NCBI GenBank assembly: GCA_015056045.1
Contig: SVGZ01000009.1
Coordinates: forward strand, 1-64,000
Source of the DNA: Clostridiales bacterium
GTDB taxonomy: Bacteria > Bacillota > Clostridia > Christensenellales > Christensenellaceae
Direction of reading: 5' to 3'
Length of the DNA stretch: 64,000 nucleotides
In this document: piece after piece, positions 3,324 to 28,601 of the stretch
Position numbering within the stretch: the stretch's first letter is position 1
Layout of the letters: each line of letters opens with the position of its first letter
Program-made: the position numbers and the translations under genes
Notes under the pieces: model-generated
The model's input: only the letters and a program-made list of their open reading frames with translations
Databases searched by the model: none
What the model was told of the DNA's origin: nothing

Positions 3324-4193
3324 TTACAGGATCTCTTTCAGGATCTCAACAACATGTGCGGAGCTCTCTGCAATGTAGCAGCCTGCTGCTCTTAATGCAG
3401 CTTCCTTGCTTGCAGCGCTGCCTGTGCCGTCTGCGGAAACGATAGCACCGGCATGACCCATGCTTCTGCCCTTAGGTGCATTTTTACCAGCGATAAGAGC
3501 AACGACAGGTTTTGTAACGTGCTTTTTGATGTATTCTGCAGCAAGTTCTTCTTCACTGCCGCCGATTTCACCGATAAGAACGATCGCTTTTGTATCCGGG
3601 TCAGCTTCGAAATCCGGGAGAAGGTCTACGAACATGGATCCGGGGATCATGTCGCCGCCTACGCCGATAGCTGTGGACTGGCCGATACCTGCATTGGACA
3701 TAAGGAAGATCGTTTCATAACCGTTTGTTGCGGAACGGGTCATGAGGCCGACATTGCCGGGTTTGAAGATCGCATGCGGCATGAAGCCTGCTTTTGTCTT
3801 ACCGGGGGAAATGATGCCAAAGGAGTTGGGTCCGAAAAGTCTGACACCTTTAACTCTTGCCAGATAGTAGCAATACATCATGTCATGTACCGGAACGTGT
3901 TCTGCGATTGTCATGACTGTCGGGATACCTGCGTCGATAGCTTCTTCAACGCTGTTTCTCATGAACTTTGCGGGAACGAAGATAACGGTAGCGTTTGCAT
4001 TGGTTGCATCAAGCGCTTCTCTTACGGTATTGAATACCGGAACGCCTAAAACTTCCTGTCCGCCTTTACCGGGTGTAACGCCGCCAACAACATTTGCACC
4101 GTAAGCGAGCATCTGTTCTGTGTGGAAACGGCCTTCTCTGCCGGTAATACCCTGTACGATCAAACGAGTGTTTTCATCAAGAATAATACTCAT
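3324..4193 (-). CDS. succinyl-CoA-synthetase-like ligase, alpha subunit
   Basis: The 289-residue protein has the SucD layout: an N-terminal CoA-binding Rossmann domain (GITGREGRFHTEQM) and a ligase domain with IVLIGEIGGS and the phosphohistidine motif GHAGAI, with His247 matching the active-site histidine of the family. The loop that reads SRSGTLTYE in ordinary succinyl-CoA synthetases is SRSATNGYE-like here (TRSATNGYE, about residues 152-160), which points to another acid substrate. With the beta subunit it should interconvert acyl-CoA + NDP + Pi and acid + CoA + NTP. The neighbours (acylating aldehyde dehydrogenase, E1/E2) suggest energy conservation from an acyl-CoA rather than a TCA-cycle role. 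The real substrate is unknown. Confidence 0.85.
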   Translation of the reverse strand: MSIILDENTRLIVQGITGREGRFHTEQMLAYGANVVGGVTPGKGGQEVLGVPVFNTVREALDATNANATVIFVPAKFMRNSVEEAIDAGIPTVMTIAEHVPVHDMMYCYYLARVKGVRLFGPNSFGIISPGKTKAGFMPHAIFKPGNVGLMTRSATNGYETIFLMSNAGIGQSTAIGVGGDMIPGSMFVDLLPDFEADPDTKAIVLIGEIGGSEEELAAEYIKKHVTKPVVALIAGKNAPKGRSMGHAGAIVSADGTGSAASKEAALRAAGCYIAESSAHVVEILKEIL

Positions 4194-4206
4194 CTAAATT
4201 TCCTCC

Positions 4207-5355
4207 TTACTGACGGAGATCCCAAAGTGCTTCAACAGCTTCCGGGATACCGTTGACAAGGGTTACTCTGTCGGAGATCGTGTTGATGATCTCAATACCC
4301 TTATCTTTGTTTGTGCCTTCCATACGGATGATGACTTTCTTGTTTGCCGGCTGTTCAGCAAGAGCGAGCTTAACACCGCCGCAGACTTCGTCGCAGCGTG
4401 TAATGCCGCCGAAGAGGCAGATGAACAGTGTATGAACCTTCGGGTTGGAATACATAATTCTTACTGCTTCCTTGATTCTTTCAGCTGTAGCGCCACCGCC
4501 AAGGTCAAGACCACTGCCGCACTTCATACCTCTCTTGGAAATGAGGTCGATGCAGCTCATCATAAGGCCGGAGCCGTTGGACATAATGCCGATATCGCCT
4601 TCATCTTCAAGCGGTACATAGTGGAAACGGAAGGAACGTGCTTCTTTGACGAGTTCTTCTTCCTGGAGCTTATCTCTGAACTCGAGAATATCCGGGAGTT
4701 TATAAAGAGCGCTGTCATCGATGCTTACTTTGCCGTCAAGAGCAATGAGTGTATCATCAGCATTGACGCCAACGGGGTTGATTTCGATCAGCATGCAGTG
4801 ATATTCGAAGAAAGCTTTATAGAGCTTTTCAACCATAGCTTTTAACTGATCTTTGAATTTTTTATCTGCACCGGTCTTGTCCATAGCGTATTCGATAACA
4901 TAATCTTTAACGCCTGTGAAGATGTCGATCGGAATTTTTGCGATCTTATCGGGCTGTTCTTTTGCGACCTGTTCGATATCCATGCCGCCAACCGGGGAGA
5001 AAATAAGAAGCGGAGACTTTGTCAGTCTGTCAAGCATGATGGAAAGGTACCATTCGTCAACCGGGTTTGCCTTTTCAACGATCATGAGCTGCTTGGCAAT
5101 GTGACCGCGAATATTCATGTATAAGATTTCTTTTGCACGATCGGAAGCTTCTTCGGGTGTATCTGCAAATTTGATACCGCCGGCTTTGCCTCTTCCGCCG
5201 ATCTGTACCTGTGCCTTAACAACAACAGGATAAGAAAGGTTTGCTTCTACGATCTTTTCTGCGATGCCTTCCGCGCTGTCGATTACGGTGTTCTTCATGA
5301 TCGGAACATCGTATTTAGCGAAGATTTCTTGTGCTTTATATTCAAGAAGATCCAC
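4207..5355 (-). CDS. succinyl-CoA-synthetase-like ligase, beta subunit
   Basis: A 382-residue SucC homologue with an N-terminal ATP-grasp domain (QVQIGGRGKAGG glycine-rich loop at about residues 50-61; the metal-binding segment LIEINPVGVN) and a C-terminal flavodoxin-like ligase domain with LFGGITRCDEV. The stretch normally reading MVNGAGLAMATMD is MSNGSGLMMSCID, and the nearby GGEPANFLD is replaced. It is therefore a divergent member, like the alpha partner 13 bp downstream. Homologous pairs are known to act on acids other than succinate, for example malate and sulfoacetate. The RBS (AGGAGG-like, just upstream of 5355) is strong. A 95-bp gap with a stem-loop (5407-5433) separates it from the aldehyde dehydrogenase gene. 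Confidence 0.87.
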   Translation of the reverse strand: MDLLEYKAQEIFAKYDVPIMKNTVIDSAEGIAEKIVEANLSYPVVVKAQVQIGGRGKAGGIKFADTPEEASDRAKEILYMNIRGHIAKQLMIVEKANPVDEWYLSIMLDRLTKSPLLIFSPVGGMDIEQVAKEQPDKIAKIPIDIFTGVKDYVIEYAMDKTGADKKFKDQLKAMVEKLYKAFFEYHCMLIEINPVGVNADDTLIALDGKVSIDDSALYKLPDILEFRDKLQEEELVKEARSFRFHYVPLEDEGDIGIMSNGSGLMMSCIDLISKRGMKCGSGLDLGGGATAERIKEAVRIMYSNPKVHTLFICLFGGITRCDEVCGGVKLALAEQPANKKVIIRMEGTNKDKGIEIINTISDRVTLVNGIPEAVEALWDLRQ

Positions 5356-5406
5356 AACTAACCTCCTAAAAATAAGTTATTGTAATTTTGTGGAATTTAC
5401 AAGCCA

Positions 5407-5433
5407 TAGGAGCGGCATTACACCACTCCTACG
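5407..5433 (-). other. intra-operon stem-loop
   Basis: A GTAGGAG / CTCCTAT stem with a 13-nt loop lies in the 94-bp gap between the aldehyde dehydrogenase and the ligase beta gene. No U-tract follows it, so it is more likely an mRNA processing or stability element than a terminator. Confidence 0.35.
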
Positions 5434-5449
5434 GACTTTATTTAATCAA

Positions 5450-6817
5450 TTAGAGAGCCCAGATCTCTTCATCAGAGGGCTGGCTCCAACCTTCTTTTTC
5501 GTATGCAACTCTTGTAATGTTGTAGAGATGATAGTAAGAGAGGTTTTCGCTGATGGAGTTGTTGCCCCAGCTGCCGCATCCGAGTGTTGTTGTCGGGGAA
5601 AGCGAGTTGGAGAATGCACCGCCGTTCTGTGTAGCGCAGCTCTGGTTGATGAGAACACGGCTTACAGGGAGAACTTCGCCAGCGTATTCGATGTGAGCCT
5701 TGTTATTGGACTGGATCGATACGGAGTGGCCTTTGCCTTCAACATTGAGGTTTGCATAAGCGATCTCAACAGCTTCTTCCCATGTATCATAAGCATAAGC
5801 GCTCATGAGCGGGCACATCTTTTCTTTGCTGAAGTAATCATCTTTGCCATAGCCGGAAGCCTTGACGATGATGAGCTTTGTGCCTTCGGGAATAGCGATG
5901 CCTGCTGCTGCTGCGAGCTGTGCAACGGGCTGACCAACGAGGTCTTTGTTCATAACGCCGCCGGGGAATACTGTGTTGCGGATAGCTTCAACTTCTGCAG
6001 CATCTTCTGTGTAGTAAGCACCCTGAGCAACGAATTCGTCGATGATAGCTTTGTAATCTTCTTTCGGAGCGATGATCGTCTGGTCGCCGGAGCAGATGAT
6101 ACCGTTGTCGAAGATACGGGAAGCGATGATCTTGGAAACAGATGTCTTGATGTCGATATCTTTGTCAAGGATACCCTGAACGTTGCCTGCGCCTACGCCA
6201 TAGCTGGGCTTGCCGCTGGAATATGCGGATTTAACAACACCGGGGCCGCCTGTTGCGAGAACGACGTCAACACTCTTCATGAGCATTGTGGAAAGTTCGA
6301 TTGTGGGTTCTTCGATGTAGAGGAAAATATCCTTCGGTACGCCGAGTTTTTCGAATTCTGCATCATAGAGTTCTTTGATAGCTTTTGTGCATTTCTTGGA
6401 ACGCGGATGGGGGCTGATGATGATTGTGTTGCGGCCCTTTACAGCGAACATAGCGTTGCACATGGGTGTAACGATCGGGTTTGTGCAGGGTGTAGCTGCG
6501 CCGATAACGCCCATCGGCTTAGCAACTTCGACGATACCTTCATCTTCGAGTCTGCGGATGATGCCAACGGATTTCTTGCCTTTGAGGTGATTCCAGATGA
6601 TTCTGGATTTGCCCTTATTCTTAGCAACCTTGTTTTCATATACGCCCATACGGGATTCTTCTACAGCCATTTTTGCAAGGGGCTCTGCGTTATCATAAAT
6701 AACTTTTGCCATTGCATAGCAGATAGCATCGACCTGTTCCTGTGTATAGGTCTCAACGATTTTCTGTGCTGCTCTCGAACGAGCGATAAGATCATTCAGA
6801 TATGCCTGATTATCCAT
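5450..6817 (-). CDS. CoA-acylating aldehyde dehydrogenase
   Basis: A 455-residue enzyme of the ALDH superfamily branch that includes EutE, C. kluyveri SucD and SauS. It catalyses aldehyde + CoA + NAD(P)+ to acyl-CoA + NAD(P)H. The catalytic cysteine is C242 in NGIICSGDQT, and the cofactor-site segments PMGVIGAATPCTNP (101-114) and ATGGPGVVKSAY (188-199) are intact. The absence of a catalytic glutamate region of the hydrolytic ALDH type agrees with acylating chemistry. Next to an acid-CoA ligase pair it forms an aldehyde, acyl-CoA, acid + ATP module. The same pairing is known in sulfoacetate metabolism (SauS with a SucCD-like ligase). Substrate not determined; acetaldehyde, succinic semialdehyde, lactaldehyde and sulfoacetaldehyde are all possible. 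Confidence 0.87.
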   Translation of the reverse strand: MDNQAYLNDLIARSRAAQKIVETYTQEQVDAICYAMAKVIYDNAEPLAKMAVEESRMGVYENKVAKNKGKSRIIWNHLKGKKSVGIIRRLEDEGIVEVAKPMGVIGAATPCTNPIVTPMCNAMFAVKGRNTIIISPHPRSKKCTKAIKELYDAEFEKLGVPKDIFLYIEEPTIELSTMLMKSVDVVLATGGPGVVKSAYSSGKPSYGVGAGNVQGILDKDIDIKTSVSKIIASRIFDNGIICSGDQTIIAPKEDYKAIIDEFVAQGAYYTEDAAEVEAIRNTVFPGGVMNKDLVGQPVAQLAAAAGIAIPEGTKLIIVKASGYGKDDYFSKEKMCPLMSAYAYDTWEEAVEIAYANLNVEGKGHSVSIQSNNKAHIEYAGEVLPVSRVLINQSCATQNGGAFSNSLSPTTTLGCGSWGNNSISENLSYYHLYNITRVAYEKEGWSQPSDEEIWAL

Positions 6818-19186: not shown

Positions 19187-19918
19187 ATGATGTATTCTGT
19201 TAAAGAAGTAAAAAAGATGCTCGGTATCAGCGCGCGTACCCTGCATTATTATGACGAGATCGGACTTTTGAAACCGGCAGAAAAAAGCGAAGCCGGTTAC
19301 CGCAAATACAGCGGGAAAAATATCGAGGAACTCCGATATATCCTTTTATTCCGTGAATTGGGCTTCAGCCTTTTGGAGATCAGCAGTTTGCTCAAAAAAG
19401 ATGACAAGGAGAAACTTGAAATTTTGCGCATTCAAACGGAAAAACTGGAACAAAAGAAAGCGCATCTCGAACATCTGATCACGCTTTCCAAAGGAATTTC
19501 ATTTATAGGAGTAAAACACATAGATATGAAAAATTTTGATGTGAAAAAAATCGATGATTATAGCGAACAGGCAAAAGCGCTTTATGGCAAAACAGAAGCT
19601 TACCGCGAATTTGAAGAAAAAGAGAAAAACCGCACGGAAAGTGACAATGAAGCTTTAAGCGAAGAGATGATGGATATTTTCCGCAGATTTGGTGAGATCA
19701 AAGAGTCGCATCCTGCAGATTCCAAAGAAGCACAGGCTCTCGTTTACGAGCTTCAGAGCTTTATCACGAAGCATTTTTATAACTGTACAAAAGACATCCT
19801 CCGCGGCTTGGGAAAGCTTTACAGCGGCGGAGGTGCTATTACGGATAACATTGACAAAGCCGGCGGTATTGGAACAGCCGATTATTCAGCTGAAGCTATC
19901 GAAATATTCTGTAAATAA
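19187..19918 (+). CDS. MerR-family regulator with TipAS-like sensor domain
   Basis: An N-terminal MerR winged HTH (about residues 2-72; YSVKEVKKMLGISARTLHYY, DEIGLLKP) is followed by a dimerisation coiled coil (75-100) and a C-terminal TipAS-like domain (about 125-243; QSFITKHFYNCTKDILRGLG, YSAEAIEIFC). TipA-type proteins trap thiopeptides and other amphipathic ligands and activate resistance genes or themselves. The gene is monocistronic, its promoter has a 19-bp spacer, and no obvious exporter lies next to it unless the AI-2E permease downstream counts. GGAGGTG precedes the ATG. Confidence 0.88.
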   Translation: MMYSVKEVKKMLGISARTLHYYDEIGLLKPAEKSEAGYRKYSGKNIEELRYILLFRELGFSLLEISSLLKKDDKEKLEILRIQTEKLEQKKAHLEHLITLSKGISFIGVKHIDMKNFDVKKIDDYSEQAKALYGKTEAYREFEEKEKNRTESDNEALSEEMMDIFRRFGEIKESHPADSKEAQALVYELQSFITKHFYNCTKDILRGLGKLYSGGGAITDNIDKAGGIGTADYSAEAIEIFCK

Positions 19919-21967: not shown

Positions 21968-22999
21968 TTATTGTTTTGGTAAAAAACAGCCCGGATCGGC
22001 TTTGTAGAAATTTCCATAAGCAGCATATGCCTGACATTTAGCACCGCCTTTGCAATAATAGGCAAACTTACAATCTCTGCAATCATTCGGGATCGTGTTC
22101 TTACGCAAAGATCTTAAAACGTCACTTTCAAAGTAGATCTTTTCCAGTGTGCTGTCAAAAACATTTCCGCATATGATAGGCATCCTTCTGCAGGGCATAA
22201 CCCGACCAAACTCATCCACTGTGATCAGGCTCTTTCCGGCACTACACGAATAGATCTTCCCTTCCGTTCCTAAAAACTGCAAAGCACGATCTGCGGTAAC
22301 TTTCGTTTTCGGATAGCAATGTTTTTTGAGCCAATTCCCTTGGGCCTTTTTTATCGCCTTCAGGTAATCCTGCAAATGCTCTTTTGTAATGGTCTGCAAT
22401 TCTTCTCCATGGCCAATTGCCACCATTCTGTCCGTCCACAATTTCGATATGCCGTATTTCCTGCATTGCGATGCAACATGCGGCAGATACTTATAATTGT
22501 TGTAATTTGCCGTAAAGCTGATGTATGTACGAATACCGCTTTCTTCAAGTATCCTTGCTGTTTTGAACGTCCTGTCATAATCCCCATGAGCGCGCAACGA
22601 ATCATGCATTTCTCTGTTCCCGTCGATACTTAACTGCACAAAAGAAACATGATTGTCTTTCAGTGTTTCAATGCGTTTTTCATGAAGAAAGCTTCCGTTC
22701 GAGAGAATACCAAAGGAAATCTCTTCTTTAAAAGCGCCCAAATATGCCAAAATCTGATCGATATCTTCGCGGATAAACGGTTCACCACCGGTAATATTGA
22801 TATGTGCCTTTTTATCGATCCCATGGATTTGATTATAGCGCTTTCGCAAAACAACAAATTGATCGATGACTTTAAAAATCGTTTTCGTGTTCAGCGGCTC
22901 AATGTCGCCTTCGTTTCGATAACAATGCTTACACCGCAAGTTACAGCGACCTGTAATATGAAACTGCAGCAATAATCGGCTTGTATTGTCGCAAAACAT
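21968..22999 (-). CDS. radical SAM/SPASM-type enzyme
   Basis: Starting at the ATG at 22999 the protein has 343 residues. The radical SAM cluster motif is C19-x3-C23-x2-C26 (CNLRCKHC), followed by the NITGGEPF SAM-binding segment. The C-terminal ~100 residues have SPASM-like auxiliary-cluster cysteines (YSCSAGKS, VMPCRRMPIICG, DCRDCKFAYYC, GGAKC, PGCF). SPASM enzymes modify peptides or proteins, often ribosomal peptides. The start lies 2 nt after the stop of a membrane protein with a CxxC-repeat tail, so translation is coupled and that tail is the obvious candidate substrate. A GTG at 23032 inside the upstream gene is possible but would give an unlikely Trp-rich extension. Confidence 0.88.
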   Translation of the reverse strand: MFCDNTSRLLLQFHITGRCNLRCKHCYRNEGDIEPLNTKTIFKVIDQFVVLRKRYNQIHGIDKKAHINITGGEPFIREDIDQILAYLGAFKEEISFGILSNGSFLHEKRIETLKDNHVSFVQLSIDGNREMHDSLRAHGDYDRTFKTARILEESGIRTYISFTANYNNYKYLPHVASQCRKYGISKLWTDRMVAIGHGEELQTITKEHLQDYLKAIKKAQGNWLKKHCYPKTKVTADRALQFLGTEGKIYSCSAGKSLITVDEFGRVMPCRRMPIICGNVFDSTLEKIYFESDVLRSLRKNTIPNDCRDCKFAYYCKGGAKCQAYAAYGNFYKADPGCFLPKQ

Positions 23000-23001
23000 G
23001 A

Positions 23002-24321
23002 TCAATCTCCACAACCGCCACAGCCACCACAACCGCCGCAGCTGCTGCAGCCGGAGCAGGCACTGCAGCCGCTTCCGTCATTTCTTGCTGCTTGCGCAGC
23101 AGCCAACGCAGCTACTTCCGCAAGTTCAACAGCAATTACTGCATCAAGAATACTCATACTTCCATCATGACATGTCACAGTTTTGTTAGATGAAAAATCT
23201 TCATAAGTCGCATATGCTCTTAAAAGATCGCGTTTTTCCGCTTCTGCCATGCTATTTTCGGTAAAAGTTGCTGCTTTTAGTTTTTCTTCTAAATCGGGCA
23301 TCTTGTTCCTTTTTGTATCAATAATGATATTGGTAAACGAGTCAGAAATCTCCGAAAGAATAAACTTTTTTCGCAATGCAAAGCAGATAGCAAGAAGAAC
23401 TGCCGAAATAATAAAACCGCTCCCAGCCAAATTCACTATTTCCTTCCCGTTATGCATGCCCATAATGAGTTTTGTTACACCGAGGTAATACGCAAGCATG
23501 ATCGCAGCTAAAGTCATAATCTCTATTCGTCTGCAAATCTTTTTCATCAGATCTGCGGTATGCAAACCGCCGGCACTTTGTATAATCGGTCCCGGAATAA
23601 CATGATGAATAATATCTACGACTGTCGTTTCTTCCTCTTTTGCCTCTTTATGCTGCAAAAAAGCGATGATCTTTTGGGTCTGCGGATTACGGCTGCAATA
23701 GTTTTCGCGATCTTCCTGTGATAAATTAGGATTTATGGATACTACGGTTTTTTCCGCTGTTTCTTCATCTTCTTTAATCTGCGTAAATCTAACGATCCTA
23801 TCCAGCTTTGCTTTTGTCAGATAATAACCTGTCATTCTGTAACGGTTGAATCCCCGCAAAATCATGAGATCGCTGTCTGTGTATTGCAAATCAACAAGAT
23901 TCTTTCCGTATTTCGCAGCAAAGGATTTCACAACAATGAGCTGCACGAAAAACGCAGTAATATAAAGAACGATTAGGTATTTTAACCAAATTCCGACGAA
24001 ATCTTTTCCCGGTATTGCCCTGATAAACTCAGGAATATTATTTTTCGCCAAAAACCACATGATATAATAGAAAATCGCTGTAATGATAACTCTCTTTTTA
24101 TTTTCAAGCAGCTGTCTGTACAGAGCGATAAAATAGACCGCCATAACGATCGCCTGCAGAATAATGCCGATTTCACCGTTGATCCAAGAGCTGATTATGA
24201 TAATAATGAGCGCGATTATTGTGTACCGAAAGATTGATGACTCTTCTTTTTCCGAACCGCAAACTCTGCATTTTTTCGTATAATCAGGTATTCTGTGTCC
24301 GCATTCAGAACAATATTTCAT
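23002..24321 (-). CDS. zinc-ribbon membrane protein with Cys/Gly-rich C-terminal tail
   Basis: The 439-residue protein starts with a zinc ribbon (C4, C7, C18, C21). About four membrane helices follow (30-47, 50-68, 76-93, 111-132), then a ~130-residue soluble region, two more helices (267-287, 297-318), and a ~115-residue C-terminal region. It ends in an Ala-rich helix (ELAEVAALAAAQAARN) followed by seven cysteines spaced exactly every third residue between Gly and Ser, up to the last residues. Such tails resemble substrates of peptide-modifying enzymes, and a radical SAM/SPASM gene follows after 2 nt. The tail could instead bind metal. No family name assigned with confidence. Confidence 0.85.
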   Translation of the reverse strand: MKYCSECGHRIPDYTKKCRVCGSEKEESSIFRYTIIALIIIIISSWINGEIGIILQAIVMAVYFIALYRQLLENKKRVIITAIFYYIMWFLAKNNIPEFIRAIPGKDFVGIWLKYLIVLYITAFFVQLIVVKSFAAKYGKNLVDLQYTDSDLMILRGFNRYRMTGYYLTKAKLDRIVRFTQIKEDEETAEKTVVSINPNLSQEDRENYCSRNPQTQKIIAFLQHKEAKEEETTVVDIIHHVIPGPIIQSAGGLHTADLMKKICRRIEIMTLAAIMLAYYLGVTKLIMGMHNGKEIVNLAGSGFIISAVLLAICFALRKKFILSEISDSFTNIIIDTKRNKMPDLEEKLKAATFTENSMAEAEKRDLLRAYATYEDFSSNKTVTCHDGSMSILDAVIAVELAEVAALAAAQAARNDGSGCSACSGCSSCGGCGGCGGCGD

Positions 24322-24471: not shown

Positions 24472-24555
24472 TGGTGCGGCTGACCGGACTTGAACCGGTA
24501 CGGTTGTCCCATACGCCCCTCAAACGTACGCGTCTGCCTGTTCCGCCACAGCCGC
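24472..24555 (-). tRNA. tRNA-Leu (anticodon GAG)
   Basis: Acceptor stem GCGGCTG with its 3' complement and encoded CCA, TTCAAGTCC T-loop, long variable arm. The anticodon loop TTGAGGG gives GAG, reading CUC and CUU. Confidence 0.96.
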
Positions 24556-24812: not shown

Positions 24813-25823
24813 TTATTTCATCTGTGCGGCTCTGTATTTTTCCATATCCCAGTTGTTGATGTACTTAACAGCGTCGTCACCCATGAAGTTGATTTCTTTG
24901 CCCATACGAGCGTTTTCAGCGAATACATAAGCAACACCGGCAAGTGTTTCTTCGATTGTGATGGCTTCTACGGGGTTTTCTGTGTTGTAGCGAACTTCTT
25001 CATCGGTGAAGATGAACTTTTCGGGTTTGCCTGTATAAACGATCTGATCCGGGTAAAGCGGCCAGCCAAAGATCTTATCGCGGAAGTCTTTGTCTGCAAG
25101 CTTTTCACGGAGCCAGGGTGTTGCGGAAGCAAAACCAACTTCAGCTTTCTCAACTTTGCAAAGCGGGAATTCGCCAAGGTTGCCGCCTTTGATCAGAGCC
25201 TGATTTGCCTTTTCGTGGATCTCAACTGCTTCTTCATAGGAATCAGCGTGAACGATGATGCCATGGTTCTGCATGAGGATTACCTGAATATCGGGGTTAG
25301 CTGTAACCATGTCTTTGATGACAACGGTCAGGAAGTAACCGGGAGACATTTCCGGAATAAGACCAACAACGAGGCCTGCATCTTCGAGGTATTTCTTTGC
25401 AACTTCCATACCGTCTTTCTGGCAGGTATAAACGTTTGCATAGACGGAATGAGAATGAGCAACGAACTTCTTCAGTACGGAATGGAAACCTGCTTCAACG
25501 CTGGGTTTGCGTACGGGTTCGCCGTTGATGGGCTTAACGCTGTCGAGAGCAACTTTGCCGATCTCAGCATTGTAATCTTTGCCGGGAACGTCTTTTTCTA
25601 CTTCTTCAACGTATTTGATGACTTCGTTGTAACGAACTGCTGCGAAGCAATCGTTGACAGCCATGTTCTTTAAGTATGTGCCGCTGGCTTTAACCGGCAT
25701 GATACCGCCTTCGAGCTTAACAGATGTATTACCACCGCCGCCCTGGATATATGCCTGGTTTTCACCGATGATATGCGACATTTCAACAAGACCCTGTAAG
25801 TCTTTCATATCCTGTGCATTCAT
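24813..25823 (-). CDS. class II aldolase, probable rhamnulose-1-phosphate aldolase
   Basis: A 336-residue class II aldolase/adducin fold protein. Visible are GGGGNTSVK (28-36), the zinc ligands in HSHSVYANV (about 122-130) and QNHGIIVHA (about 185-193), and the catalytic acid region around KPSVEAGFH. It would cleave L-rhamnulose 1-phosphate to DHAP and L-lactaldehyde. It is longer than E. coli RhaD (274 residues) and resembles the aldolase half of the bifunctional aldolase-dehydrogenase RhaEW, but the dehydrogenase half is absent. It is the third gene after rhaA and rhaB. No lactaldehyde reductase or dehydrogenase gene lies in the operon. Confidence 0.85.
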   Translation of the reverse strand: MNAQDMKDLQGLVEMSHIIGENQAYIQGGGGNTSVKLEGGIMPVKASGTYLKNMAVNDCFAAVRYNEVIKYVEEVEKDVPGKDYNAEIGKVALDSVKPINGEPVRKPSVEAGFHSVLKKFVAHSHSVYANVYTCQKDGMEVAKKYLEDAGLVVGLIPEMSPGYFLTVVIKDMVTANPDIQVILMQNHGIIVHADSYEEAVEIHEKANQALIKGGNLGEFPLCKVEKAEVGFASATPWLREKLADKDFRDKIFGWPLYPDQIVYTGKPEKFIFTDEEVRYNTENPVEAITIEETLAGVAYVFAENARMGKEINFMGDDAVKYINNWDMEKYRAAQMK

Positions 25824-25878
25824 AATTAAATCTCCTTGATAAAGCAGGGAGGAATATAAGATTCCTCCCCGATTGTTG

Positions 25879-27339
25879 TTATTTTACAATTTTGCAGAAT
25901 CTTGCGTAAGCTTCGTCCCATGCTGCGGAATCAACCGGATCATAATAGTATGTATCGAAGGAATTTTCGATTACTTTACGAGCCGCTTTGACATCCTGAA
26001 GTTCACCGGAAGCGATAAGCTGCATTGCAAGGTTGCCAAGAGCGGTTGCTTCGATCGGGCCTGCAACAACTTTTCTGCCGGCAGCGTCTGCTGTCATCTG
26101 GCAAAGCAGTTTGCTCTGTACACCACCGCCGAGGATATTGATAGCCGGGAATTTCTTGCCGGTTGTTTCTTCGGTCTGTTCGGTGAACATACGGAACTTG
26201 AGTGCAAGGCTTTCATCTACGCAGCGGACGATCTCGCCAACTGTCTGCGGAACGTACTGACCTGTCTTTTCGCAGTATTCCTTGATCCTTCTCGGCATAT
26301 TTCCCGGAGGAGCGAAGATCGCATCATCGGGATCGATAAAGCACTTGAAGGGTTCTGCTTCTTTTGCAAGGCTTTCCATCTCGCCAAAACCATAGTCATG
26401 GCCTTCTCTTGTCCACTGTCTGCGGGCTTCAGCAAGGATCCATGTACCCATGATGTTTTTGAGAAGACGGATATCGCCCGTAGCGCCGCCTTCGTTGGAG
26501 AAGTTGTACTTCTTTGCGAGGTCGTTCATGCAGGGTTCAGAGATCTCTGTGCCGAGCAGTGCCCATGTACCGCAGCTGATGTATAAGAAGTCATCATTCT
26601 GTGTGGGTGTTGCAAGGACTGCAGAGCCTGTATCGTGGCCTGCTGTACGGACAACTTTTGCAGCCGGAGCGCCGAGTTCTTCCTGAATTTCCGGAAGCAG
26701 TGTGCCGACGAAATCACCGGCCATGCTGACGGGCAGGAAAAGTCTTTCCGGGATGCCGAGTTTATCTAAAATCTCTTTATCCCATGTGCGCTTCTTTGCA
26801 TCAAGGAGCTGTGTTGTGGAAGCCATGCTGTATTCAGTGTATTTAACACCTGTGAGGAAGTAAGCCAGCAGGTCGGGCATGAAGATGATCTTGTCTGCCT
26901 TTTCGAGGAGCCAGGGCTGGTTCTTCTTTACAGCATAGAGCTGATAGATCGTGTTGAGAGATATAAGCTGAATACCTGTACGATCATAGAGTTCTTCTCT
27001 CGGAATAATGTTGAAAAGCTCTTCCCAATCGTTTGTGCGTGCATCCCTGTAGTGAACGGGATTCTGCAGCAGCTGACCATCTTCATCTACGAATGCGAAG
27101 TCAACGCCCCATGTGTCGATACCGATATAATCGAAACCGCCATCATTGACAGCTTTTGTGATCGCTGTCTTCATTTCGAAGAAAAGGCGAAGGATATCCC
27201 AATACATCGTACCGTTTACGGTTACGGGGTCATTGGTAAATCTGTGGATCTCTTTCATGGAGATCTTTTCGTTTTCGTATGTTGCGAGCATGGCTCTGCC
27301 GCTGGAAGCGCCATAGTCAAATACTAAATATCTGCTCAT
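25879..27339 (-). CDS. rhaB: rhamnulokinase
   Basis: A 486-residue FGGY-family kinase of normal RhaB length. The N-terminal phosphate loop DYGASSGRAM (9-18), the WGVDFAFVD substrate segment (about 78-86), the HDTGSAV motif (about 240) and the GGGVQS adenosine motif (about 400) are visible. It phosphorylates L-rhamnulose at C1. It follows rhaA by 11 bp in the rhamnose operon. Confidence 0.95.
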   Translation of the reverse strand: MSRYLVFDYGASSGRAMLATYENEKISMKEIHRFTNDPVTVNGTMYWDILRLFFEMKTAITKAVNDGGFDYIGIDTWGVDFAFVDEDGQLLQNPVHYRDARTNDWEELFNIIPREELYDRTGIQLISLNTIYQLYAVKKNQPWLLEKADKIIFMPDLLAYFLTGVKYTEYSMASTTQLLDAKKRTWDKEILDKLGIPERLFLPVSMAGDFVGTLLPEIQEELGAPAAKVVRTAGHDTGSAVLATPTQNDDFLYISCGTWALLGTEISEPCMNDLAKKYNFSNEGGATGDIRLLKNIMGTWILAEARRQWTREGHDYGFGEMESLAKEAEPFKCFIDPDDAIFAPPGNMPRRIKEYCEKTGQYVPQTVGEIVRCVDESLALKFRMFTEQTEETTGKKFPAINILGGGVQSKLLCQMTADAAGRKVVAGPIEATALGNLAMQLIASGELQDVKAARKVIENSFDTYYYDPVDSAAWDEAYARFCKIVK

Positions 27340-27350
27340 TTTTACACCGA

Positions 27351-28601
27351 TTAGATTCTCTTGGAGAGAACTTCTGCTTCGTATGCCTTAGCGTCAGCCA
27401 TCCATTCCATGCCAACCGGAACGTTGCGTGTTGCGCAGTAGTAATCCCAAACAGCGCCTAAAGGCATTGTGTTGAGTTCTTCCTGGTAAGCGAGTCTGGA
27501 GGAATTGTCATCAGAATTTTCGAAAGCTTTGAGTGTATCTGTGGGCTCGAGGAGTGCGTTTAAGATAGCCTTCTTAACGTTTCTTACGCCGATTGTCCAA
27601 GCGAAGATTCTGTTGATGGAAGCATCGAACCAGTCTGTGCCGATGAAGACTTTTTCCCAAGCGTTGTTGCGAGCGATTTCTTTGAAGATCTGCTTTGTTT
27701 CGTCGTCGAACTTAACTACATGGTCGGAGTCCCAACGAACCGGACGGCTTACGTGGAGAAGGATGCCCTTAACGAACGGTAAGCAAGCTGTGATCTTTGC
27801 GGAAACGACTTCTGTCGGGTGGAAGTGACCAGCGTCGAGGCAAAGGAGTGTGCCTCTTGTTGCGGAGTAACCCATGTAGAATTCGTGGGAGCCTACTGTG
27901 TAGCTTTCAGCACCGATACCGAATACTTTGGATTCAACTGCAACGAGGTGGTTATCCATCTTTTCAGCCATAACTTCGTCGAGAGCTTCAACGAGTCTTG
28001 CTCTGGGAGCGAGTGTGTCGATCGGAACTTCCTTATCGCCATCGTGTACCCAGAAGTTCATGACAGCCTGTCTGCCGAATTCTTTACCGAAAGCATCGGA
28101 GATTTCTCTGGAGCGTTTTGTATGCTCGATCCAGAATCTGCGGATCTTTTCATCTCTGTTGGAGATGGAATATTCGCCGCTGAGCGGATGAGAGAAGGAT
28201 GTGGAGTTGAAGTCGAGACCGATCTTTTCGCCTTTAGCCCAGTCAATCCAGTTCTGGAAGTGTTCTACTGTGATAGCGTCTCTGTCAACTTTTTTGCCAG
28301 CTGCGAATTCAGCATAGTTTGCATGGAGGCTGAGTGTCTTCGGGCCGGGGATATAGGTGAGCATTTTGCTGGTGTCTTTTCTTAATTCATCAGCTGTTCT
28401 TGCTCTGCCGGGATAGTTACCTGTTGTCTGGATGCCGCCTGTGAGTTCGGATGCACCTTCAAAACCTAAAACGTCATCGCCCTGCCAGCAATGAATGGAA
28501 ACGTTGATCTTGTCGAGCTGAGCCATAACAGCTTCTGTGTCAACGCCGATCGCAGCATAAGCTTCTTTAGCTAATTCATAAGCTTTGTTGATATCTGCCA
28601 T
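27351..28601 (-). CDS. rhaA: L-rhamnose isomerase
   Basis: The 416-residue RhaA interconverts L-rhamnose and L-rhamnulose. Family segments are [12 protein letters not shown] (about 38-49), [10 protein letters not shown] (metal and substrate site, about 182-191), [26 protein letters not shown] and [11 protein letters not shown]. It is the first gene of the rha operon behind a consensus-like promoter. No AraC/LacI/DeoR-type regulator is adjacent. Confidence 0.96.

Follow-up and report, generated by a model that had tools for sequence, protein, structure and literature searches.

Radical SAM peptide maturases are known chiefly from small precursors consisting of a leader and a core. DUF2207, TPM/YgcG and TIGR04222 proteins are widespread, and their function is largely unknown. 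Several maturases, such as SkfB, CteB, AlbA and PapB, share with the enzyme described here a radical SAM domain with a SPASM/twitch fold and a Cys-rich substrate encoded next door. The substrates of sactipeptide and ranthipeptide maturases are small leader-core peptides, unlike the membrane protein at our locus, and the solved structures of these maturases bear an N-terminal RRE (PMC8326336), which our enzyme lacks. SbtM, a radical SAM/SPASM enzyme acting on peptide Cys (or Sec), turns Cys into thiooxazole with the loss of four hydrogens (reviewed in PMC11002830), and a precursor peptide is given as its substrate. The radical SAM enzyme of the ACGX system (TIGR04340) belongs, by name, to a system with a Cys-repeat target. 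The closest described membrane protein system involves unrelated enzymes: in 2025, Cys-tailed TIGR04222 membrane proteins were proposed as substrates of O2-dependent MNIO (DUF692) enzymes, with the tail predicted to be periplasmic (PMC12452194). MNIOs, an aerobic enzyme class, also make the bufferins, copper-binding Cys products that contain thiooxazole (PMC12452194).

The locus analysed here lies in the window, a stretch of 64,000 nucleotides from a gut-type Clostridiales bacterium (contig SVGZ01000009.1), and consists of two genes for which we propose, with a probability of about 75%, in-place maturation: the radical SAM/SPASM enzyme would act on the Cys/Gly/Ser tail of its membrane protein partner, and the tail would stay attached to the membrane (Table 1). 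The gap of 2 nt between the genes, reported in a preliminary description of this DNA, is exact: the membrane protein gene ends with TGA, two bases (TC) follow, and the enzyme gene starts with ATG at 22999. To the right of the pair lies a tRNA-Leu (24472-24555) and to the left, on the opposite strand, the gene of an ECF-transporter S component; before either is reached, the minus strand adds no further gene to the pair. Also near the pair are three adjoining minus-strand genes (24813-28601) which resemble, by eye, a rhamnose-type sugar aldolase, kinase and isomerase. Positions 19187-19918 encode a regulator of the MerR family that has a TipAS domain for antibiotic recognition (Pfam 9.9e-30).

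Table 1. Features of the gene pair (positions in the window)
Feature	Position	Strand	Details and basis
Multi-pass membrane protein, divergent TIGR04222-like, proposed substrate	23002..24321	-	439 aa; ORF and translation, homologues sharing the tail, AF2
Radical SAM/SPASM enzyme, proposed tail maturase	21968..22999	-	343 aa; ORF, Pfam, AF2, Foldseek, clade support 100/99
Zinc-ribbon-like motif (CxxC...CxxC), N-terminal residues 3-24	24250..24315	-	Pfam Zn_Ribbon_1, sub-threshold
Ala-rich, partly charged helix preceding the tail, residues 391-414	23080..23151	-	AF2
Tail with seven Cys, GSGCSACSGCSSCGGCGGCGGCGD (residues 416-439), putative modification site	23005..23076	-	Sequence, homologues, AF2, pattern search
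Radical SAM cluster motif CNLRCKHC, residues 19-26	22922..22945	-	Cys invariant in 48/48 relatives
SPASM region (seven Cys between residues 252 and 338; variant core C-x2-C-x5-C-x5-C)	21986..22246	-	Pfam SPASM

The enzyme matches two Pfam domains, Radical_SAM (2.3e-19) and SPASM (2.7e-07; 31.2 bits against a cut-off of 21.5). Its place in the radical SAM superfamily is indicated by the CxxxCxxC motif, the Pfam match, and an AF2 model (mean pLDDT 89.9, pTM 0.90) whose best Foldseek matches, SuiB, SkfB, PqqE and CteB, are all peptide maturases. The cluster motif and the many SPASM-region cysteines seen at first reading stood up to comparison, as Cys 252, 270, 307, 310, 316, 322 and 338 are each kept in 47-48 of 48 relatives, with the core ending in the variant spacing C-x5-C. 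No RRE (PqqD-like) domain occurs among the Pfam matches of the enzyme, in which only 18 residues precede the cluster motif, and the locus carries neither an RRE domain or gene, the hallmark of leader-dependent RiPPs, nor a conserved extra neighbour.

The membrane protein contains several hydrophobic helices and ends in ...GCSACSGCSSCGGCGGCGGCGD. Its seven tail Cys (residues 419, 422, 425, 428, 431, 434 and 437) are all three residues apart and follow an Ala-rich helix, just as the preliminary description had it. The AF2 model is mostly helical (mean pLDDT 72.8), the tail being modelled as disordered (pLDDT <50), and has no match in the PDB. Among homologues, the helix before the tail is weakly conserved and mostly amphipathic. 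At the N-terminus, Zn_Ribbon_1 reaches 22.0 bits against the Pfam cut-off of 25, and the zinc-ribbon-like motif is kept in some, not all, homologues. The end of the tail is much more constant: all ten sequences compared (the window protein and nine homologues, 23-37% identical to it) finish with the same nine residues, CGGCGGCGD. The Cys and Gly codons of the tail differ synonymously between copies, and the repeat is thus conserved as protein and not as a DNA repeat. In the whole genome of this bacterium, a five-unit Cys-x-x DNA pattern occurs in this tail (in three overlapping registers) and in two other places.

Window-type tails were also sought without reference to the enzyme. Searched for in 391 genomes of the class, a DNA pattern for the tail ending occurs at five sites, in three genomes (reversed control, 0), and all three carry the enzyme, adjoining at least one tail copy. 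The preliminary description had held it against its own proposal should homologues of the membrane protein usually occur apart from the radical SAM gene; every genome found with a window-type tail protein has the enzyme too. Only one window-type enzyme, L016, lacks a tail gene next door, and a tail protein is encoded elsewhere in its genome. Tail genes may be present in several copies, three in tandem at one locus (L017) and three dispersed in another genome (G505). The pair is rare, since a family profile search of 398 genomes of the phylum returned only its own genome. Searches with the membrane protein gave no match in other genomes of its genus and family, none in genome contigs scanned with this single sequence and none in plasmids. 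Two FeoB-type loci (L007, L010) gave weak matches, compositional in look, and were rejected as not homologous.

A much wider distribution emerged on the side of the enzyme. Bacterial and archaeal genomes were searched with an alignment of four enzymes, the best 80 loci were taken, and a tree of 82 enzymes was built, with clade members thus sampled by their similarity to the window enzyme. The latter falls within one clade of 53 (support 100/99), 50 members of which could be labelled with a tail partner: 48 have a Cys-containing, Gly/Ser-tailed membrane protein nearby (three of these tails, in L022, L043 and L057, hold few Cys), one is the L016 case, and one adjoins small Cys peptides (L024). 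For the other three (L030, L058, L081), no tail partner lies within the stretch around the gene. Outside the clade, a tail was found in 1 of 29 loci (L093). On the tree, the tail label requires 5 changes, against 25.1 when shuffled. By a strict automatic rule, tails were scored in 43 of 51 fetched clade loci and in 1 of 29 outside (Fisher p 2.6e-13, uncorrected for relatedness). The pairing is spread over several bacterial phyla, and the enzyme and the tail protein are the only conserved neighbours, accompanied in some loci by a LemA-like or a zinc-ribbon protein.

The arrangement of the two genes varies. In Clostridium ljungdahlii (L019), the tail protein is encoded at 4055-4999 and the enzyme at 5001-6020. 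In betaproteobacterial loci L033, L034 and L036, the tail gene, on the minus strand, converges on the enzyme gene rather than preceding it, and L033 has two tail genes. In a member of Clostridiaceae DTU079 (L011:741-1782), the TIGR04222-type gene by the enzyme is split into two overlapping frames near an A-run, which may reflect an assembly error or a frameshift. LemA-like genes, recognised by eye, adjoin Cys-tailed DUF2207 proteins in six loci (L032:773-1333 and five similar ones). In the Njordarchaeota locus outside the clade (L093:866-2347), a 493-aa protein ending CFGCGGCGSCGGCGGCGGCGG precedes a radical SAM/SPASM enzyme more distant than those of the clade, and the two may have paired independently.

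The clade-wide survey also changed the scope of the proposal, which had been framed around the window protein and now concerns one case of a pairing on three membrane protein families, TIGR04222, DUF2207 and TPM/YgcG. Proteins above the TIGR04222 cut-off accompany the enzyme at L011/L020, L022, L023, L025, L026, L033, L034, L036 and L062, DUF2207 tail proteins for example at L027, L028, L041, L045 and L063, and TPM-domain tail proteins at L035, L050, L057 and L060. Their endings differ: the clostridial TIGR04222-like type closes with CGGCGD or CGGD, the DUF2207 type with CSSCGGGGSW or CSGCGGGGAD and the TPM type with GSGGSSSF. The tails consist of about 42% Gly, 26% Ser and 24% Cys, and a Cys spacing of 3 is the commonest (134 cases), followed by 4 (54). 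TIGR04222 scores are just 9 bits for the window protein and 17 for its nearest relative (L015), against a cut-off of 43 and the 46-118 bits of relatives in the enzyme clade. When the profile of the window family was compared with TIGR04222, the tail dominated the signal; the tail-free profiles shared no more than a short motif, and full TIGR04222 membership was ruled out on this ground. The short common motif and the IPGxxFLGI region suggest that any relation of the window protein to TIGR04222 is a remote one.

If the enzyme acts on Cys, the same anchors should be Cys-free where it is missing. Ordinary DUF2207 and TPM/YgcG proteins, often found with LemA, have like anchors, Gly-rich C-termini and similar last residues (e.g., GGGGSW). 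DUF2207 was detected in 41 of 148 genomes of the class, and 40 regions were fetched. Unlike in the window-type pairs, the sampled DUF2207 tails have no Cys repeat: among 26 readable clostridial Gly tails, 22 contain no Cys and 4 contain one. No clade enzyme was found in the 40 regions, some of which lie on contigs that stop near the gene, so that a more distant enzyme is possible.

These observations bear on two explanations in which the tail is no substrate. A Gly/Cys-rich tail might stand by chance beside an unrelated enzyme, as low-complexity tails evolve fast and can originate by slippage. Such an origin runs against the end CGGCGGCGD, invariant despite synonymous variation, and it is very unlikely, in our view scarcely credible, because the pairing is clade-wide, DUF2207 tails without the enzyme are Cys-poor, and the enzyme-blind pattern and the codons point the same way. 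Alternatively, the tail might remain an unmodified thiol module for metal, Fe-S or redox functions, with the enzyme acting on another molecule or merely borrowing the tail as a partner. CxxC repeats readily bind metal without modification, and the window protein has a zinc-ribbon-like N-terminus. We nevertheless consider this improbable: one enzyme clade tracks the tail over three anchor families, Cys is almost absent from DUF2207 tails without the enzyme, and no other conserved candidate substrate lies nearby. The enzyme-substrate pairing thus appears real and is well supported by association, and the tail is the probable substrate.

The chemistry that the enzyme would perform may be approached through its nearest named relatives. 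At a threshold of 1e-30, NCBIfam models of the ACGX enzyme and SbtM match 48 and 47 of 48 clade members, respectively, PapB 3 and StsB 1; sactipeptide and ranthipeptide maturase models match 1-3 of the 48. Wherever a score is given, clade members remain below the cut-offs of the SbtM and ACGX models. The window enzyme scores 124.9 bits to SbtM (TIGR04082; cut-off 350), 124.1 to ACGX (cut-off 400), 97.5 to PapB (340), 83.4 to StsB (625) and 74.5 to AlbA (850), and because it falls short of these curated cut-offs, we do not assign it to SbtM, ACGX or the sactipeptide and ranthipeptide maturases. For the clade, SbtM ranks with the best-matching NCBIfam models, with differences: its model has 516 positions, of which the window enzyme aligns to 200-516 only, about 200 N-terminal ones being absent. 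A search for SbtM itself gave no signal in 229 Bacillota genomes nor in the named controls, so that SbtM may still occur in these genomes. The ACGX model (341 positions) resembles the window enzyme in length; its best score among the tabulated clade members is about 156 bits, and the window locus has no ACGX repeat or small precursor.

The window enzyme may work like SbtM. Provided that the tail is modified, the published SbtM reaction, in which Cys loses four electrons to become thiooxazole, has a nearly even chance, thioethers are a somewhat weaker candidate and some other chemistry is a clearly smaller possibility. Since SbtM and ACGX are the nearest named relatives, we rate thiooxazole (-4 Da for each Cys) no lower than thioether (-2 Da), which the first reading of this locus had in mind. 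Taken over all readings, cross-links between Cys sulfur and a Gly, Ser or Ala carbon, each with a loss of 2 Da, seem rather unlikely. The thioether makers SkfB and CteB are among the nearest radical SAM/SPASM folds, and the tail offers many evenly spaced donor Cys and Gly, Ser and Ala acceptors; on the other hand, models of thioether maturases pick up no more than 1-3 of the 48 clade enzymes at 1e-30, those of SbtM and ACGX 47-48, and the tails are poor in the Asp, Asn and Thr side-chain acceptors known from ranthipeptides.

Whether the product stays on the membrane is a separate matter. Leader removal is usual for radical SAM RiPPs, and the membrane domain could be regarded as a very large leader whose cleavage would yield the modified tail as a free or exported peptide. 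One clade member gives this idea some substance: in a Poribacteria locus (L024:4461-4916), two small peptides (56-58 aa) with CGCGCG-type repeat ends lie upstream of the enzyme and there is no membrane protein. Nevertheless, no conserved peptidase or exporter occurs within the stretches around 51 loci (a distant gene could serve), and the anchors are large families in their own right, many with ordinary Cys-free tails. Release is thus a remote prospect for the pair as a whole, and maturation in place is favoured. The elements behind this preference that the sequences bear out are the coupling of the genes, its clade-wide recurrence on three anchor families, the conservation of the tail, and the lack of an RRE, conserved peptidase or exporter.

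We envisage that the enzyme binds the flexible C-terminal tail of its partner and oxidises it on the cytosolic side, that nothing is cleaved off, and that the product remains on the membrane; several tail proteins of a genome may share one enzyme, as the L017 and G505 copies suggest. Hydropathy and positive-inside counts predict a cytosolic tail for most DUF2207 and TPM proteins, which would suit a cytosolic Fe-S enzyme. For the TIGR04222 type the same count is ambiguous, the pre-tail helix being sometimes hydrophobic enough for a membrane span. Once modified, the tail would be a Cys-derived module tethered to the membrane; its most plausible purpose, proposed by analogy with the bufferins, would be metal (copper-like) binding. 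The modification in place that the preliminary description put forward is thus upheld by association as regards enzyme-tail coupling and the probable retention of the tail on the membrane protein, the modification itself being inferred.

The preliminary description also knew of no characterised system of this form; a precedent has been proposed. The MNIO/TIGR04222 system resembles ours in its integral membrane protein, an unstructured Gly/Ser/Cys C-terminal tail proposed as a substrate in place, and an adjacent peptide-modifying oxidative enzyme, and Cys tails of TIGR04222 had already been proposed as MNIO substrates (PMC12452194). It differs in that its enzymes use O2, are unrelated to radical SAM and occur mostly in Actinomycetota, and in that radical SAM pairing extends from TIGR04222 to DUF2207 and TPM anchors. 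No MNIO gene (PF05114) was found in the genome of this bacterium (~80% complete) nor in seven clostridial relatives; two proteobacterial genomes with a clade enzyme do contain PF05114. Among open-licence papers, none was found on DUF2207 or TPM with radical SAM, and judged against this literature, the radical SAM version of the Cys-tailed membrane protein system appears to be undescribed. It is conceivable, if speculative and as a whole doubtful, that in many anaerobes the clade is the O2-independent counterpart of MNIO, making thiooxazole-type ligands from the tail Cys of TIGR04222, DUF2207 and TPM proteins and so producing an unreleased membrane-tethered metal-binding brush.

The pairing of one enzyme clade with three kinds of membrane protein points to an undescribed chemical modification, carried out in place, of membrane-bound proteins. 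If this is true, protein tails, besides peptides, would be a regular class of radical SAM substrates, and DUF2207, TPM/YgcG and TIGR04222 proteins would gain, in at least one subset, a testable chemistry. The comparison with MNIO suggests that aerobes and anaerobes, the former with MNIO and the latter with radical SAM enzymes, may reach similar tail Cys chemistry via unrelated enzymes.
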